Positions 9,650-17,706 of a DNA stretch of 28,497 nucleotides are shown here, one piece after another. The notes beneath the pieces were generated by a model that did not search any database, was not told the DNA's origin, and saw only the letters and a list, made by a program, of their open reading frames with translations. Every line of letters starts with the position of its first letter. Position 1 is the stretch's first letter. A program made the translations under genes and the position numbers. Source of the stretch: a virus; IMG/VR virus record IMGVR_UViG_3300004770_000005, positions 1-28,497 of that record; one strand, given 5' to 3'.

Positions 9650-11146
9650 ATGGCTTCCTCTAAAGAATCATTGTTTGCGGTGTTCGGCATGGACATTGCG
9701 CCTCTATTGCAAAGCCTCAAAAGGGCGACTAATAGCGTCCAAGAAGCCACCACTAAGATGGGCAAAGAATCTTTTGGTTCATTATTGGCACCTATTGGAA
9801 GCGTTGTGGCAGCCATCGGATCGGTGGCGGCCATCATGGAAGGAATGAAAAGCGGCCTTGAATTGGGCGCTCAAATGCAAGAAGCCGCTGAACAAACCGG
9901 CATCGCTGCCGGAAACTTCTACATGCTTCGCCTCGCCGCGAAAGATGCGGGACTTGAAGTGGACAAGATCCCAGGAGTCATTGGGAAAATGCAAGCTGTC
10001 CTAGCTGCATCTGTCAACGGCGGTGGACAATCCAGATTACTGACAAGCCTTGGGTTGGATCCTCGTCAATTAGCGGAAGCAAAACCAGATGAAGCATTAA
10101 GGAAGATAGGAGCAGCTATTGATTCGGTGGAAAACCGAGCTGCTCGAGCCGGAGCCGCCCGCGCAATCTTTGGCCGAAGTGGAACGGAACTTTTGCGTCT
10201 CTTTGCTTCTCCAGAATTCAAAAACTCGGGAAATCTTTCCGACGCCGCCAGAGTCATTGAAGAAAATGCCGCATTGTTTAAGCAGATCATGAATGATCTG
10301 GAACACGTTTGGGATCGTCTTAAAGAAATCTTTGTCGGTCTTGATAAACAACTTTTTCCCACCATTGATGCCGCATTAAAACGGTTGGAAGGGGTCGATT
10401 TTACTTCGTGGGGGGAAAAGATGGGAAATGTCATTGCCGGATTCTTTACAGATTTTACCAACCGCATGGAAATCCTTGGAGAACTCTTAAAAGAAGTGTT
10501 TTTGGGGGTTATCCTTCCTTTTATTACTCCTTTTACGGCATTGCTAAAAGATTCAGCGATTGTTTTTGGTCGCGCCATGAAGGATGTCCTTTTAGAGCCT
10601 CCTGCGTGGATTAAATGGACAATGGATCATGCCAAAGCCGGGGCGGCAATCGTCTCATTGGTTTCCGATCCTTTGCGGAACAGCCCCGTTTCAAAAGGTC
10701 TTGATTATTTGGAAACCCCCAATAAAAGCACCGGTCCTGATTTTCTTGGCGACATGAAAAAAGCATTGGACGAATCCTATGCTGCCAACAATGGACACCG
10801 GGATAAAATGACCGAGCTATTTGAAAAACTAGCTGCACCAACCGGATGGGTGGAATCCCTGAATAAAAACGCCCGAGATAAAGCCAACGAAGAAGCCTCA
10901 AGAAATGGCGATTCCCCGATTTCCGGTGATCTTGGACTTGGAGGAAAGGGATTTGGATTGATTTCAGATTCTTTGGCACGGGTTGGCGGTGGTGGAAATT
11001 TCCAACTTGGGGGTGAAATGACTAATCCGATTGTGACCGAACAAAAACGATCCAACACTTTGCTTCAGCAAATCCTTCAAGAAGCAAAAAACAACAAGCT
11101 TCCAGCCAATAATCTTCCAACCGGACAATTTGCTTTTTCAGTTTAA
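9650..11146 (+). CDS. Tape measure protein
   Basis: The 498-residue protein follows the chaperone pair and precedes the tail tip genes, the standard tape measure position. The N-terminal 90 residues contain SLKRATNSVQEATTKMGKESFGSLLAPIGSVVAAIGSVAAIMEGMKSGLELGAQMQEAAEQTGIAAG in outline (helix, hydrophobic segment, then the LAKDAG-type helix), a pattern common at the start of tape measure proteins. A hydrophobic stretch about residues 282-302 (LGVILPFITPFTALL) could be membrane-active during DNA injection. It is short for the class; by the known rule of about 1.5 angstrom per residue the tail would be roughly 75 nm or less. Confidence 0.85.
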   Translation: MASSKESLFAVFGMDIAPLLQSLKRATNSVQEATTKMGKESFGSLLAPIGSVVAAIGSVAAIMEGMKSGLELGAQMQEAAEQTGIAAGNFYMLRLAAKDAGLEVDKIPGVIGKMQAVLAASVNGGGQSRLLTSLGLDPRQLAEAKPDEALRKIGAAIDSVENRAARAGAARAIFGRSGTELLRLFASPEFKNSGNLSDAARVIEENAALFKQIMNDLEHVWDRLKEIFVGLDKQLFPTIDAALKRLEGVDFTSWGEKMGNVIAGFFTDFTNRMEILGELLKEVFLGVILPFITPFTALLKDSAIVFGRAMKDVLLEPPAWIKWTMDHAKAGAAIVSLVSDPLRNSPVSKGLDYLETPNKSTGPDFLGDMKKALDESYAANNGHRDKMTELFEKLAAPTGWVESLNKNARDKANEEASRNGDSPISGDLGLGGKGFGLISDSLARVGGGGNFQLGGEMTNPIVTEQKRSNTLLQQILQEAKNNKLPANNLPTGQFAFSV

Positions 11147-11148
11147 CA
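11142..11148 (+). promoter_or_regulatory. TTTAACA variant of the start-upstream motif
   Basis: TTTAACA in which TAA (11144-11146) is the stop codon of the tape measure gene; spacer to ATG 11163 is 14 nt. The single change from TTTGACA converts TGA to TAA, so the stop function and the motif overlap. Confidence 0.45.
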
Positions 11149-11162
11149 CCTAACCAACGATC

Positions 11163-11846
11163 ATGGCCGCCACGACATCCACCTCCACCACGTTTGACGC
11201 ACGTCTGGGAACCTATATCACCACGACGGTTGCCCAAGACGTCTCTTCCCAACCCGTGCCTCCAAGCGGATCTGGAGCGTTTGAAATCACGACAGCCTAT
11301 TCCGACGGAATCTACACGACCACTTGGAAAACCGAATCGGGAACAAATCCCACGGGGTTTCCTGCCCTTCCATCAGGAAGCACCTATAATTACGAAGTCC
11401 ACACATCGGTCAGCACGGAACCGCTGGTCACGCATACGTATTTTACCTCCGGCGGAAAATGGGCGCTTTCTTCAACGGATCTCCAAGCCATCAAAATTGC
11501 GGAAAGCGATCCGGCTAATACGGTCACTGGATGGGTGGCGATCTCCACGGCATCGGGATCATCTGCCAATCTCAAACAATATGCCACGCTTGTTTCTCAG
11601 GGAATTGATACCTACCTGAACCCTTCCATCACGCTTTCCATTACCGATGATGAATCCTCCCTTCCTAGCATTGCAACGATTGGTCAGATCGCTTCGGGAC
11701 TGACCAACGCACCCACCCTCCCCTCGGGAGGGAATTGGCTTTTCACAGGAATGAACGCCACGGCCCTTTCCAATGGGAAATGGAGGATTGCCAAAGAATA
11801 CCGTGCAAGCGGTCAAAAAGGTTGGAACACCTCGATCTACCAATAA
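11163..11846 (+). CDS. Thr/Ser-rich tail tip protein, unknown
   Basis: A 227-residue protein very rich in Thr and Ser with predicted beta strands; it contains DLQAIKIAESDPANTVTGWVAIST and ends KEYRASGQKGWNTSIYQ. No known domain recognised. It lies directly after the tape measure protein, so it is likely a distal tail or tip component. The next gene starts 3 nt after its stop. It shares the Ser/Thr-rich composition of the large protein at 12451-14625. Confidence 0.6.
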   Translation: MAATTSTSTTFDARLGTYITTTVAQDVSSQPVPPSGSGAFEITTAYSDGIYTTTWKTESGTNPTGFPALPSGSTYNYEVHTSVSTEPLVTHTYFTSGGKWALSSTDLQAIKIAESDPANTVTGWVAISTASGSSANLKQYATLVSQGIDTYLNPSITLSITDDESSLPSIATIGQIASGLTNAPTLPSGGNWLFTGMNATALSNGKWRIAKEYRASGQKGWNTSIYQ

Positions 11847-11849
11847 CCG

Positions 11850-12431
11850 ATGAAACGCATCCCACGGATGAGTTCGGGAGGAGTTTTGACCCCTCAAGGT
11901 TGGGACATGGTGGCTCAGGTCATTGATGCCAACTTCCGCGAATGCCAGATCCAGCCGGGCAAGGGCGTCACCATTTCCAACGGGACCGGAGGTCAAAGCG
12001 TTTCCGTAAAACAAATTCCCGTAAAAGGTGCTACATCCGTTTATCCATTTGATTTTATCGGGGTCACTTCCACCACGTGCAAATTTCAGCCAGGGACAAT
12101 TGCGGGGCTCATCCCGACCAACATGTTTGCCACGCTGACCTTTTCCACAACGACCAGCTATCTTTTGGCAACTTGCACGACCTCGGGACAAAAAGTCACG
12201 GCAGCCACGCTTTCCATCGTGACAACCGTCCCATCGTTTCCGATTCCTACCGTGGGAGCTGCTCCAAGCACCCTATACATTGTCCTGGGAACCTTTACCT
12301 CGGGATTATACACAAATCTTTGGCAACAATCGATTTCTGCCACACCCAAGGAAGTCATGCGGGTACCGGTTTCTAATCCCACCGCTTTTCAGCTTCCCTT
12401 CACTTCGTATTGGGATTGGTCGGTTTCTTAA
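11850..12431 (+). CDS. Tail tip protein, unknown, 193 aa
   Basis: No family recognised. The N-terminus (MKRIPRMSSGGVLTPQGWDMVAQVIDANFRECQIQPG) reads as a helical module of the kind found in phage tip and receptor-binding proteins, followed by beta-rich Thr/Ser sequence (LATLTFSTTTSYLLATCTTSGQKVTAATL) and a WQQSISATPKEVMRVPVSNP stretch. It follows its neighbour by 3 nt with no separate signal, so translational coupling is probable. A structural tail role is an inference from position and composition. Confidence 0.55.
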   Translation: MKRIPRMSSGGVLTPQGWDMVAQVIDANFRECQIQPGKGVTISNGTGGQSVSVKQIPVKGATSVYPFDFIGVTSTTCKFQPGTIAGLIPTNMFATLTFSTTTSYLLATCTTSGQKVTAATLSIVTTVPSFPIPTVGAAPSTLYIVLGTFTSGLYTNLWQQSISATPKEVMRVPVSNPTAFQLPFTSYWDWSVS

Positions 12432-12450: not shown

Positions 12451-14625
12451 ATGACACCTCAAGCCTCGGTCACGTTCACGGTTGCCAACTCAAACACTTA
12501 CCTCAACGATTTCATCTATCAAAAAACGTGGAAGCGATTGCAAAGTGGATCTGGTAACGCCACAACATCCACAGTCTTAAACGGTGATACCAATTATACA
12601 ATTTTACATTCGGCATTTTTAGGAACTTCAACGCAGTCGTACACCCGAAATTATTTGATTAACTCCTCTAAAGCTCCATCTTATACGTTTACCTCAAGTT
12701 CTGCTTACACGGAGTCATATAATAGCCCGTTAACCTATTATTGGTATTCAAGCGGAGGTGCTGACGGCACAGGAGCAGTTGAATTAACTTCGTCAGATGC
12801 ACAAGGAACCGGAGTCTACAAAGCTCAAACATTTTCGCCTTTCTTTGTTACTTCCGGCTCAACCAGTTCCACGGGCAACTATTCGGCGTCTGGGGCAAGT
12901 TATACGGATTACCAGACGGTCAATGATTTTAATGGATATGACTCTGATGGGAATATCCGATACTCGGGGTATTCCACATCCGTGGTTTACACAACTTCCC
13001 TCACTTTTGCCACCACGATTGATTCGGCAATTCGCGCTACGGCTGCCTACACGACAACCTGGACCACGGCCGCTTCCAACACTTCTTTTACGGTCACTTC
13101 CTACGACACATTCACGACGGCGACGACAAACGCTTGGGGATCCGCCTCAAGTCTCTCCACATCGAGCAAGACCACGCTTTCCGTGGATACCTACACGGCT
13201 CTTTCCAGCTCGCAAACGACTACCTATATTTATGCCGGAATCTACCCGTTTGGAACCGGATCTCTTTGGAAAAGCCGGATTGAAACATTTGCCGACACAA
13301 TAGTTTTTGTGCCTTCTTCGGCAGTGGCGTATGCGTTCACGACCACGGGAAATAACGTGGCCTCGGCGATTGCAACAACATTTGCTTCGTCATTAGTTCA
13401 AAGCAGTTTCTCGGTGTCGATGGTGACCACAAGTTTTGCTGCCGTCAGTTCTTCCATTACTTATTCCAGAAATAATGGCGGGCTAATTACTTCGTACCTT
13501 GTTTCCAGTTCACTTGTTCAAGGCGTCACTTCAAGCGTGACTTATCCAACCGGACTTGCTTTCAGTGACGTGACTTCTTCACTGACTTCTTCGTCCTATT
13601 CAGGAACTGCCGCCACTTATGCTGGATCCAATCCTACTGCAATAGTGACTTATTCGGCAGGATTGTCTCAAACGGGGTTGATTCCCTTTGTGTCCACACA
13701 AGCGGTCTCGTCGTTTGGGTCGGTCTATGTGGATTCAAACGGATTAAACCTAATCTACCCTCTGACCGATACGATTGCTGGAGGATCTAACCTTTCTGCC
13801 ACGGCAATAGTCTTTGGATCCCTTGGATCAAGTAATGATTCCGTCAATGGAACGGGTGGAGAATCATATTTTCTCACTTCTGCTTCATTTATTCCCATTC
13901 CTGCAATCGGAGCCTCGATTCGGACAAACATTCCGACAATACAGTTGACCACTCAACTTAAAGGAGGAGGGACGTCACAATCTTTTCGGGCTTTGCCAGG
14001 ACAAATGACCGGCGGATCAACTCCCGCCCCGGCTGCCTATTTTACCGCAGGATCTTTTCCGGCATGGCTTACGGTTTCGTCCGTTTTTTTCCAAGTGGGT
14101 TTTTCGGATCTTGGCTATGAGAATGTCCCGCGAGTTTTTCCGTTCAGTGGATCGGGAAGCTATGTTTCCAGCGTCTCTTCAATCCTTACTTCTATCTCTG
14201 GCAATACGATTTTTGCGACTTCTCAATCAACGGCCACTTCGCTCTCAGTCTCCAGCACCTCCACGGCCACCATCACCAACACGATCACCGGCTCAACCTC
14301 GATTGCTTTTGGCACCTCGGGAGCCGTCGCTAGTTTTTACGCCTCCTCAGTCACCAACTTGATCCCTGCCAACGTCACGGGATATGTCACTCCTCCGGGA
14401 GTTTTTGATGTCTGGGACTCGTCAAGTTCAACACGCTTTGTTCAAAACAAAGCGCAATTCTGGGGAGCCGGTGGCAATCAATCGTATTTCTCCAATGTAA
14501 ATGGTTTTTATGCTGCCAAACCCATGAATTTTTCCCCATATGCCGGAGGCTATGCGGATTCAGCGAATTCCACGTTAAGCGTCATCCCGGCAGTGGCGGC
14601 CCTGACTTACTCTTACGTTTTATAA
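12451..14625 (+). CDS. Large Ser/Thr/Tyr-rich tail protein
   Basis: A 724-residue protein with extreme low-complexity character: Ser and Thr make up about half of the residues around positions 205-265, and Tyr, Ala and Gly most of the remainder. No catalytic motifs, few charged residues and many short YTTTWTTAASNTS-like strings suggest an extended beta-rich or fibrous surface protein. It lies between the tip genes and a glycosyltransferase gene, so it is a plausible tail tip/fibre protein and possible sugar acceptor. ATG 12451 is chosen because the upstream in-frame ATG 12280 lies deep inside the preceding gene. AAGG at 12445-12448 is too close to be a standard ribosome binding site. Confidence 0.7.
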   Translation: MTPQASVTFTVANSNTYLNDFIYQKTWKRLQSGSGNATTSTVLNGDTNYTILHSAFLGTSTQSYTRNYLINSSKAPSYTFTSSSAYTESYNSPLTYYWYSSGGADGTGAVELTSSDAQGTGVYKAQTFSPFFVTSGSTSSTGNYSASGASYTDYQTVNDFNGYDSDGNIRYSGYSTSVVYTTSLTFATTIDSAIRATAAYTTTWTTAASNTSFTVTSYDTFTTATTNAWGSASSLSTSSKTTLSVDTYTALSSSQTTTYIYAGIYPFGTGSLWKSRIETFADTIVFVPSSAVAYAFTTTGNNVASAIATTFASSLVQSSFSVSMVTTSFAAVSSSITYSRNNGGLITSYLVSSSLVQGVTSSVTYPTGLAFSDVTSSLTSSSYSGTAATYAGSNPTAIVTYSAGLSQTGLIPFVSTQAVSSFGSVYVDSNGLNLIYPLTDTIAGGSNLSATAIVFGSLGSSNDSVNGTGGESYFLTSASFIPIPAIGASIRTNIPTIQLTTQLKGGGTSQSFRALPGQMTGGSTPAPAAYFTAGSFPAWLTVSSVFFQVGFSDLGYENVPRVFPFSGSGSYVSSVSSILTSISGNTIFATSQSTATSLSVSSTSTATITNTITGSTSIAFGTSGAVASFYASSVTNLIPANVTGYVTPPGVFDVWDSSSSTRFVQNKAQFWGAGGNQSYFSNVNGFYAAKPMNFSPYAGGYADSANSTLSVIPAVAALTYSYVL

Positions 14626-14631
14626 GCAACC

Positions 14632-14638
14632 TTTGACA
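14632..14638 (+). promoter_or_regulatory. TTTGACA start-upstream motif with long spacer
   Basis: TTTGACA with a 26-nt spacer to ATG 14665, the only long spacer in the set. The spacer contains a perfect 6-bp hairpin (14645-14661). Confidence 0.5.
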
Positions 14639-14644
14639 CCCCTC

Positions 14645-14661
14645 GGAGATCAACGATCTCC
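14645..14661 (+). promoter_or_regulatory. Hairpin inside motif-to-start spacer
   Basis: GGAGAT (14645-14650), loop CAACG, ATCTCC (14656-14661). Folding would remove 17 nt from the path between TTTGACA and the ATG at 14665. It also sequesters GGAG, the only Shine-Dalgarno-like sequence there. Confidence 0.5.
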
Positions 14662-14664
14662 ACC

Positions 14665-15693
14665 ATGCTTGTCATCACCGTCGCGGCCACCCGTTCTTAT
14701 CTCCATGCTTGGCCTCAATGCGTCCGAGCCATTGCTGCAGCCGCCGGCCACCACGAAGAAGCGCATTTTGTCTTGGCAACCGATGAGTCCAAGGAAGGAA
14801 AAATGGCCGAGGAGATCGCCAAGAACGAACTTCCCGAGGGGTGGAAAGTCACGGTCCTCCGTCTGCCGATCAAAGAAGACGAAAAAGACTACAAGGAGAC
14901 CGCCCAGCTTCGCATTGCAGCGTTGCAAGGGGCCTGCTTTAGCTTTGCCCGCAAGATCCGCGCTGCACAATGCCTTGTGGTTGAAAGCGACACCATTTTG
15001 CCTGCCCATGCCCTCCGAGTCTTGGAATGGACGCTTCAGATGCCCAAGGCGGACGGATCTCCCTACTACCAAGTGGCAGCCGCCACCTATCCCAACGGGC
15101 TTTTCCTTGGGGGATTCGGCTCGTATCAGAACCCGATTGCCGAGGATTTCTTGCCAGAAGAGCGAGTTTTGCCTGACCGATTGAAACTTTGCCTAACCAA
15201 ATGCGAGGAACGCTTGAAATCCTGCACGGATCAAAAGCTAGGAGAACGCGAGATGAAGCGTCTGGGACGCCTTCGAGAACGCATCAAAAACAAACCACCC
15301 ACCGGAAGCGTTTTTGAACTCAATGCCAAGGGATACCGTCGGCGTGGGTGGATGGACTTTGCTTATCCTGGTATCGGTCTGGGAGCTGTGGTTCCGACCG
15401 ATTGGTGTGGCCTCGGATGCACCCTACTTTCCAAAGAAGCTCTCTTGCACGCCGATTTCACCGGTTACGATGGCCGAGGGACTCAGGACCTCTTCCTTTG
15501 TTGGCACCGCTGGCACCCCGCCGGGATGAATCTGGCCATCGTCCCTCACGTGGCATGCGACCATATCAAGCGCCGTTCCTCGGAGGCCCCCATCACCGAC
15601 CCAGAGATCATTCACTACCGAGCTTACCACGAGACCTCGGGTGAATGCCAAGGCCACCTCCGTCAACGAACGCAAGCCTTTATCTCTGTTTGA
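14665..15693 (+). CDS. Glycosyltransferase-like protein, GT-A fold (putative)
   Basis: The 342 residues follow a GT-A layout: an N-terminal MLVITVAATRSYLHAWPQCV nucleotide-binding strand-helix and a DxD-like site in LVVESDTILP (E107-S108-D109). Next come CGLGCTLLSKEAL near 248-260, the GTQDLFLCWH segment (about 272-281) in the place of the acidic base motif, and VACDHIK with H300 as a possible metal ligand. Such enzymes move a sugar from a nucleotide-sugar to an acceptor. Residues 160-215 form a charged helical insertion (KCEERLKSCTDQKLGERE). It sits among tail fibre genes, which suggests that a tail protein or host surface sugar is the acceptor. Substrate unknown. Confidence 0.7.
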   Translation: MLVITVAATRSYLHAWPQCVRAIAAAAGHHEEAHFVLATDESKEGKMAEEIAKNELPEGWKVTVLRLPIKEDEKDYKETAQLRIAALQGACFSFARKIRAAQCLVVESDTILPAHALRVLEWTLQMPKADGSPYYQVAAATYPNGLFLGGFGSYQNPIAEDFLPEERVLPDRLKLCLTKCEERLKSCTDQKLGEREMKRLGRLRERIKNKPPTGSVFELNAKGYRRRGWMDFAYPGIGLGAVVPTDWCGLGCTLLSKEALLHADFTGYDGRGTQDLFLCWHRWHPAGMNLAIVPHVACDHIKRRSSEAPITDPEIIHYRAYHETSGECQGHLRQRTQAFISV

Positions 15694-15695: not shown

Positions 15696-15708
15696 TCCAC
15701 TTTTGAAC

Positions 15709-16065
15709 ATGGCTGCCACCTATAATATCGCAATTCAACAAGGGGCAGATTTTTCTGATAAAATCACACTGACGGATTCATCGTCCAATCCGATCAATTT
15801 GACGGGAGCCACGGTGACGTCTGTTATCCGGCGCGGCCCCTCCACGGCGGGATATGCCATTCTGGGATCTTTTACGATCACAATTTCAGCTCCCACCACC
15901 GGAGCAATTTCCCGATTTATGGCCGGATCGGTCACGGCCAATTTGCCGATTCCTTTTGGAACCGGAGTTTCTTTTTTGCATGACGTCAAAGTGGTTACTT
16001 CAACGGGAACAATTTTCTATCCGGTCACTGGATCGGTGACAATCAACGGCGCATCCACGGTTTAA
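15709..16065 (+). CDS. Beta-sandwich tail fibre/baseplate-associated protein
   Basis: A 118-residue protein beginning with TYNIAIQQGADFSDKITLTD and NPINLTGATVTSVIR. This pattern, well known to me from small proteins in phage fibre clusters, resembles the N-terminal domain of BppU-like upper baseplate proteins. The rest is alternating beta strands ending VTGSVTINGASTV. It likely anchors or caps the collagen-like fibre encoded 3 nt downstream. ATG 15709 is chosen over the in-frame TTG 15703 because it gives the 13-nt TTTGACA spacing. Confidence 0.65.
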   Translation: MAATYNIAIQQGADFSDKITLTDSSSNPINLTGATVTSVIRRGPSTAGYAILGSFTITISAPTTGAISRFMAGSVTANLPIPFGTGVSFLHDVKVVTSTGTIFYPVTGSVTINGASTV

Positions 16066-16068
16066 GCA

Positions 16069-17706
16069 ATGAGCAACGATTTTACGGCAGTCATTACTCC
16101 CGCTGCCGCAATTTCTGTCACGGCAACACAAAACACCACAGGCGTTGTCACGTTAAATGTCGGACCTCCCGGCATTCAAGGGGCAACTGGTCCACAAGGA
16201 TCCACGGGAGCAACTGGAGCTACCGGATCAACAGGGGCGACAGGTCCAGCCGGCCCAACCGTCAATCTTCAAGTATCGGGTGGATATGTTCAATATCAGC
16301 ATGTGGGAGATTCCTCATGGGTTAATCTGATTTCCGTGGCTACATTGACAGGAGCCACGGGCGCAACAGGGCCGACAGGTGCGACGGGTGCGACGGGAGC
16401 TACCGGAGCAACAGGTCCGCAAGGTCCAACGGGACCGCAAGGTTCTCAAGGTATAACGGGAACTACCGGAGCAACTGGAGCTACCGTAAACCTTCAAGTT
16501 TCAGGCGGATATATCCAATGGCAGCATGTTGGGGATTCATCTTGGACAAACCTTATAGCAGTTTCTTCCTTGGCGGGTGCTACCGGGGCAACCGGAGCAA
16601 CGGGAGCAACTGGTTCACAAGGACCTCAAGGACCTCAAGGAATTCAAGGAATCCAAGGCCCAACAGGGGCAACTGGAGCCACGGGCGCAACTGGAACTGC
16701 GGTCTACAATCAATCGCTGAACACGACCAATGATGTGGTGTTTGATAAATTAACCATTGGAGCTGATAGCAATATCGTCCTTAATGCCGACGGATCGGCT
16801 TTATTTGCGGGTGGAAATGGTTCTTTATCAATAGCGGCCGATGGGTCGCTTAATCTGCAAGGAAACATTGAATTAAATGCAAGCAATGGAAGCGCGTCGT
16901 TTGTATCAGGAGCATTTATTGTTCAATCTGATGGAACAATAAATTTTGATAGTGGAGCTGGATCAAGCGACTCGTATGGCGGATTAAACAATAACAATGG
17001 AAATGATAATTGGGGAATAAATGGGCAAAATGGAGCTGCATCGTTTGCTTCGGGTAATTTTTATATAAATCCAAATGGATCATTTACTTTTGATAGTGGC
17101 AGCGGCTATGGGGGAAGAAGTGACGGACAAGGCGGATTTTCAAATCAGTTTGGCAATAATAATTACTCCATCAATGGATCAGATGGTTCCGGGAATTTTC
17201 AAGGCCTAAACATCGGTTCAGGCTCTGCATCGGTCGATTACACGGGAGCAGCTCGATTTAATTATATTGGAACAGGACAAACCACGGAATATCTGGGACA
17301 GGAGCATTACAATGAATTGTGCGCCCCGGTCGGGGGAGGAGATCCGTTGTTTATTGCTGGTGGAAATGGCGTCATCGAAATCTGGGACAATCCCAACTAT
17401 GACGATGCCACATCGTTTGCGTCTTTTGGTTTAGCCATCCCTGGCCATGCCATTACTTCCGACCTGATTTTTTCAAATTACACGGGAGGGTGGAATGAAT
17501 CGCTGCGATTAACGTCCAATCGATCTGCCAGTTTTAACGGAGGTGTTGCCACAATTTCCAATACCGGGGATGGATCGTTTCACTCAATCAAACTTTCCTC
17601 TATTTCAGCCCCCTCATCGCCGGTCGCCGGGCAAATTTATTTCGATACGTCATCTCATCATTTCTATGGATACAATGGTTCCGCTTGGAAGCAACTTGAC
17701 AATTAA
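16069..17706 (+). CDS. Collagen-like tail fibre protein
   Basis: The 545-residue protein has an N-terminal beta segment (1-31) and three Gly-X-Y collagen-like blocks (about 32-63, 95-138, 170-209; mostly GAT, GPQ and GPT triplets). The blocks are separated by two near-identical 29-residue modules (65-93 and 140-168, [20 protein letters not shown] type). Residues 220-400 are Gly/Asn/Ser-rich with repeating SADGS/FDSG elements, likely a beta helix. The last 40 residues ([26 protein letters not shown]) match the C-terminal tip common in phage fibres. It should form trimers and bind the host receptor. It starts 3 nt after the previous stop. Confidence 0.85.
16261..16347 (+). repeat. Fibre spacer module, copy 1
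   Basis: Codes for a 29-residue module between collagen-like blocks; its protein sequence is nearly identical to copy 2 (16486-16572), with about six substitutions (V/I, Y/W, V/T, S/A and similar). Confidence 0.85.
16486..16572 (+). repeat. Fibre spacer module, copy 2
   Basis: Second copy of the 29-residue module of 16261-16347. Synonymous differences between the two copies show the duplication is not very recent. Confidence 0.85.

Follow-up and report, generated by a model that had tools for sequence, protein, structure and literature searches.

A predicted GT-A-fold glycosyltransferase gene paired with a hypervariable Ser/Thr-rich tail-module gene in phages

Does a phage that carries a glycosyltransferase (GT) gene within its tail module use the enzyme to decorate its own tail? 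The question arises from a 28,497-base virus record (IMG/VR IMGVR_UViG_3300004770_000005; the window, meaning the whole stretch analyzed), in which terminase, portal, tape measure, tail module, collagen-like fibre, and endolysin genes follow the normal tailed-phage order. A first-pass annotation made from the letters alone had proposed that a Ser/Thr-rich tail protein and the product of the next gene serve to O-glycosylate the tail tip or fibre.

The window features listed here all lie on the plus strand. The tape measure gene (9650..11146; PHROG 9483 and others, E value, 2e−16) is followed by genes for two conserved tail-module proteins, one (11163..11846; the 11163 protein) with profile matches in loci both with and without the GT and the other (11850..12431) with BLAST matches in 77 loci. 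Next comes the gene for the 724-amino-acid Ser/Thr-rich protein (12451..14625), and 40 bases past it begins that for the 342-amino-acid GT (14665..15693). Downstream are genes for a small beta-domain tail-fibre-associated protein (15703..16065), which matches PHROG 1084 (E value, 3e−17) and also PHROG 3304, "L-shaped tail fiber protein assembly" (5e−12), and for a collagen-like tail fibre (16069..17706; Pfam Collagen, 1e−15, and tail-fibre PHROGs). The count of promoters and terminators across the region was not above that in shuffled sequences.

The two genes and their products

The 12451 product contains 134 Ser and 110 Thr residues, together 33.7% of its 724 amino acids, and 44 charged residues (D, E, K, or R; 6.1%). 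Ten percent of its 40-residue windows reached 50% Ser+Thr, with a maximum of 57.5%; mononucleotide shuffles of the gene, used as a control, gave 17.6 ± 1.4%. These values bear out the earlier description of the product as Ser/Thr-rich and charge-poor. The accompanying term "mucin-like" suits the Ser/Thr content but not the remaining features, which comprise just 3.5% Pro, 13% aromatics, 30% VILMFYW, and no tandem serine-rich repeats in the 724 residues examined, where just one 5-mer was present twice. The ORF starts at ATG 12451, with the same MTPQ start in relatives L002 and L005, and is taken to be a real gene because its dN/dS values of 0.10 (L005) and 0.30 (L002) denote purifying selection. 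Between the window and L002, dS was 0.76 over the first 145 codons (12451-12885) and 0.02 to 0.09 elsewhere in the gene; a recombination breakpoint within the gene is likely.

Searches with the Ser/Thr-rich protein in Pfam, PHROGs, NCBIfam, and PDB sequences gave nothing useful and no tail-protein profile match. As the AlphaFold2 model of its family (26 sequences, with relative L057 as the query) failed, with a pLDDT of 36, its role was read from gene order; the slot it occupies, behind the tape measure gene and the genes for two small tail proteins, makes a tail tip or adhesin most likely. High Ser/Thr content is commonplace among beta-rich phage adhesins.

For the GT, AlphaFold2 with an alignment of 54 homologues gave a model with a pLDDT of 80, of which residues 144 to 159 and 216 to 249 are low-quality parts. 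The best Foldseek match in the PDB was the collagen galactosyltransferase COLGALT1 (E value, 3.6e−8), followed by other GT-A enzymes, and VIA-align returned Z scores of 16 to 18 (up to 17.8) to many GT-A enzymes over ∼170 to 240 residues. Z was at least 8 for 990 of the 998 chains compared, the highest-scoring all being GT-A enzymes. An ExD motif (E107-S-D109; 14983..14991), the putative metal and nucleotide-sugar site, follows core strand 102-107 in the model; E107 and D109 are invariant in the 54 homologues, and two distant homologues (L159 and L160) have VEAD and MDSD at this position. Also invariant in the 54 are T273, Q274, D275, L276, C279, and W280, within a TQDLFLCW motif (15481..15504) of which T[QE]DLF is retained in the distant homologues, as well as H295, D299, and H300. 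D275 is a candidate catalytic acidic residue, and the conservation of D275, H295, D299, and H300 suggests that the protein could transfer sugar.

No match to the window GT was found in Pfam, PHROGs, NCBIfam, or PDB sequences, or in 50,697 GenBank phage records (tblastn; E value, 0.01). Pfam Glyco_tranf_2_3 (PF13641) weakly matched 15 of the 54 homologues (best, 4e−5), and the window protein itself was without a match. A weak Toprim_2 hit (0.03, below the cut-off) was set aside in view of the predicted GT-A fold. Judged by the AlphaFold2 model, the structural matches, and Glyco_tranf_2_3 in its homologues, the 14665 product is a glycosyltransferase of predicted GT-A fold, in agreement with the first-pass annotation.

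Pairing of the two genes across relatives

Adjacency was assessed in 106 GT-bearing sequences (103 IMG/VR loci from two GT scans, two from species genomes, and the window), many of them closely related to each other and on incomplete contigs. A long Ser/Thr-rich ORF immediately adjoined the GT in 101. In 92 of the sequences, a Ser/Thr-rich ORF of >300 amino acids immediately preceded the GT on its own strand; in 9, such an ORF lay directly downstream on the opposite strand. The remaining five (L016, L027, L072, L097, and L098) were cut by a contig end or fragmentary, and no counterexample was found among the 106. As a control, 405 other long ORFs of the GT-bearing loci had a mean Ser+Thr content of 15.3%. 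The co-occurrence of the two genes, named in the initial proposal as a check, was thus seen in relatives.

Relatives with the GT in unrelated places, which the initial proposal had named as evidence against the pairing, were found in one phage group (L092 to L095, L101, L102, L104, L106, and L107), where the GT lies in another operon. The Ser/Thr-rich gene still adjoins it there, converging from the other strand with the two stop codons ≤30 bases apart, and partners of this type (L093, L095, and L101) fell into one BLAST cluster with partners of the upstream type. The two genes therefore remained neighbours through inversion, an arrangement for which simple co-transcription fails to account. 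A 142-amino-acid cupin gene precedes the GT in this group (e.g., L093:7576-8001), overlapping the GT start by 4 bases; its product matched Pfam Polysacc_synt_C (5e−9) and, weakly, FdtA/WxcM. Such a cupin beside a GT would be expected for sugar-nucleotide chemistry and hints at a deoxysugar donor.

The pairing also extends to diverged enzymes. In L159, a GT related to the family profile (E value, 2e−83) begins 17 bases past a 660-amino-acid ORF with 31% Ser+Thr, and in L160 a GT 38% identical to that of L159 overlaps a 587-amino-acid ORF with 29% Ser+Thr. In the gene order, read by eye, both pairs follow small tail genes and a gene resembling a tape measure. The pair thus persists in GT homologues at ∼40% identity, and the view that the GT is part of the tail module and evolutionarily tied to the Ser/Thr-rich gene is supported.

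Several further ORFs were observed directly past the GT or near it. In L159, the ORF past the GT (10174-11562) has 55% Ser+Thr over 462 amino acids and is a possible second acceptor. Five phages carry a second conserved ORF of 324 to 330 amino acids directly past the GT (L017:9046-10020, L024:9095-10087, L086:9045-10034, L098:1688-2674, and L099:9055-10041), with an ExD-like motif, FLWMEPDAV; it looks GT-like, yet had no database match or profile support. A DUF3431 protein follows the GT directly in L053 (9028-9708; Pfam, 1e−14), and by eye similar ORFs occur in L042, L047, and L057.

One locus of the group, the prophage L080, comes from a genome assembly of Chthoniobacter (Verrucomicrobiota) and points to Verrucomicrobiota hosts for these phages. 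A longer sequence carrying it (L158; contig C20 of G011) continues into cellular genes, among them by eye a leucyl-tRNA-synthetase-like ORF. The L159 source genome and the Chthoniobacter assembly fall within one phylum group, and the closest deposited terminase is that of Akkermansia phage Moulinsart (31% identity).

Relatives lacking the GT, identified by a scan for the 11163 family, share the tail module. The ORF in the slot of the Ser/Thr-rich gene was 191 to 595 amino acids long in these loci, with a Ser+Thr fraction of.130 to.202 and none of eight rich, versus 74 of 74 rich (.234 to.394) in GT-bearing loci; the cut-off between rich and normal was chosen post hoc, and the two ranges do not overlap. 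No GT was found elsewhere on the contigs lacking it at this position, although because these contigs are incomplete its absence is not proven. On the 11163 tree, strongly supported branches carried four label changes (sign test, P = 0.125) and the best tree six, and all changes were concordant. Adjacent genes can vanish in one deletion, and coupling alone is therefore no proof of an enzyme and its substrate.

Partner hypervariability and candidate acceptors

Partners were compared by BLAST (E value, 1e−3) without masking; SEG masking exaggerates divergence. Among phage pairs with 90 to 99% identical GTs, 63% had partners without a BLAST match, and at GT identities of <80% nearly all partner pairs were unmatched. 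The 11163 protein was alignable in 99% of the pairs whose GTs are >80% identical. The L004 GT is 92% identical to that of the window, and the partners are related solely over the C-terminal 200 amino acids; in profile comparisons of the window Ser/Thr-rich cluster with other clusters, this same stretch of L004 was the only match (probability, 77). Given so variable a partner, the GT, if it acts on its neighbour, cannot depend on a fixed sequence, and the cue for the acceptor would then likely be composition or exposed strand structure.

We regard it as probable that this dedicated GT O-glycosylates the hypervariable tail-tip adhesin, guided by composition and not by sequence. The GT could instead modify the host receptor (O-antigen or capsule) and so block re-adsorption of progeny or superinfecting virions, traveling with the adhesin because adhesin and enzyme must match. 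Modification of host surface glycans by phage GTs is well known, and co-inheritance would likewise be expected of an adhesin and an enzyme that modifies the receptor. A receptor-matched GT should diversify too, however, and this one is 60 to 95% identical despite complete adhesin turnover; it also sits in the tail module, with no gtrA/gtrB-like partner recognised beside it. As receptor modification further leaves unexplained why the neighbour is Ser/Thr-rich where the GT is present and the slot Ser/Thr-normal where it is absent, we consider this explanation unlikely.

Another virion protein could also be the target (the 11163 protein, the collagen-like fibre, or the capsid or tube), with the Ser/Thr-rich ORF as a linked, fast-evolving adhesin. 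The Thr-rich (GAT) collagen-like repeats, the collagen galactosyltransferase as the best Foldseek match, and the glycosylation of capsid and tail tube by mycobacteriophages described in PMC12619734 all favor such a target, and the 11163 protein and the fibre had both been suggested as acceptors in the first-pass annotation. Neither tracks GT presence, and both are therefore unsupported in that role: within the same clades the Ser/Thr fraction of the 11163 protein was 0.206 with and 0.215 without the GT, independent of the enzyme on which the Ser/Thr-rich slot fully depends, and collagen-like repeats were present in 3 of 6 loci without the GT and 17 of 62 with it, hence absent from most GT-bearing loci. 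This makes a different virion target rather improbable in our view. We find it very hard to credit that linkage is modular only, a beta-rich, Ser/Thr-rich adhesin and a functionally unrelated GT being exchanged as one recombination block. The mosaicism evident in the dS step between the window and L002 is in keeping with such exchange, but the adjacency outlasts inversion, placement in a different operon, and divergence to ∼40% identity, which is hard to reconcile with unrelated genes.

Proposed mechanism and known systems

Under the favored explanation, glycosylation of the neighbouring adhesin, the GT and its substrate would form a two-gene cassette of the tail module, with the GT presumably produced together with the late structural genes. 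Acting in the cytoplasm, the enzyme would move sugar from a host nucleotide-sugar onto exposed Ser/Thr residues of its neighbour, before or during tail assembly. Since it could not rely on sequence, it would probably recognise Ser/Thr-dense, charge-poor strands, and selection would maintain the composition of the partner while its sequence turns over. We infer that the glycan would benefit the phage by shielding or stabilising the tip or by tuning receptor binding.

A broader interpretation is offered tentatively and seems to us somewhat more likely to fail than to hold: the pair may represent a widespread phage "glyco-adhesin" system, found in Verrucomicrobiota phages and relatives absent from culture collections, in which one conserved GT reads Ser/Thr density and the adhesin is free to change while still sugar-coated, the glycan either shielding it constantly or contributing to receptor binding. 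To our knowledge, few phages glycosylate their virions, and none does so by means of a dedicated enzyme linked to a tail adhesin that is hypervariable. If the interpretation is correct, uncultured environmental phages could diversify their receptor-binding proteins beneath a constant sugar coat, and it becomes testable whether a protein glycosyltransferase can choose its acceptor from composition alone.

In mycobacteriophages, phage-encoded GTs are reported to place glycans at the C termini of the subunits that build the capsid and tail tube (Freeman et al. 2023, doi 10.1016/j.chom.2023.05.028, according to PMC12619734). The present GT resembles these in being phage-encoded and in that it would act on a virion protein, but it is paired with a hypervariable, Ser/Thr-rich protein of the tail module rather than with the capsid or tail tube described there, and it is without a sequence match in the 50,697 deposited phage records. 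The serine-rich repeat protein (SRRP) adhesins of Gram-positive bacteria contain repeats rich in serine and come with dedicated cytoplasmic GTs and an accessory Sec exporter (PMC6973325, PMC5207161). The present pair resembles them in having a Ser/Thr-rich protein, here a putative adhesin, and a linked GT that would act on it, whereas the 12451 product has no repeats and would be built into a phage tail. Compared with GT-A enzymes such as COLGALT1, hyaluronan synthase, mannosylglycerate synthase, and GT2-like enzymes, the window protein shares the predicted fold over ∼170 to 240 residues but only 8 to 16% sequence identity, falls below Pfam recognition, and has ExD in place of DxD. The GTs of phage O-antigen (gtr) conversion are likewise phage-encoded, but the window GT lies in the tail module, with no gtrA/gtrB-like partner recognised. 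The pair unites the idea of virion glycosylation, known from mycobacteriophages, with that of a dedicated adhesin GT, known from SRRPs, but in sequence, repeats, and location it falls outside both families.
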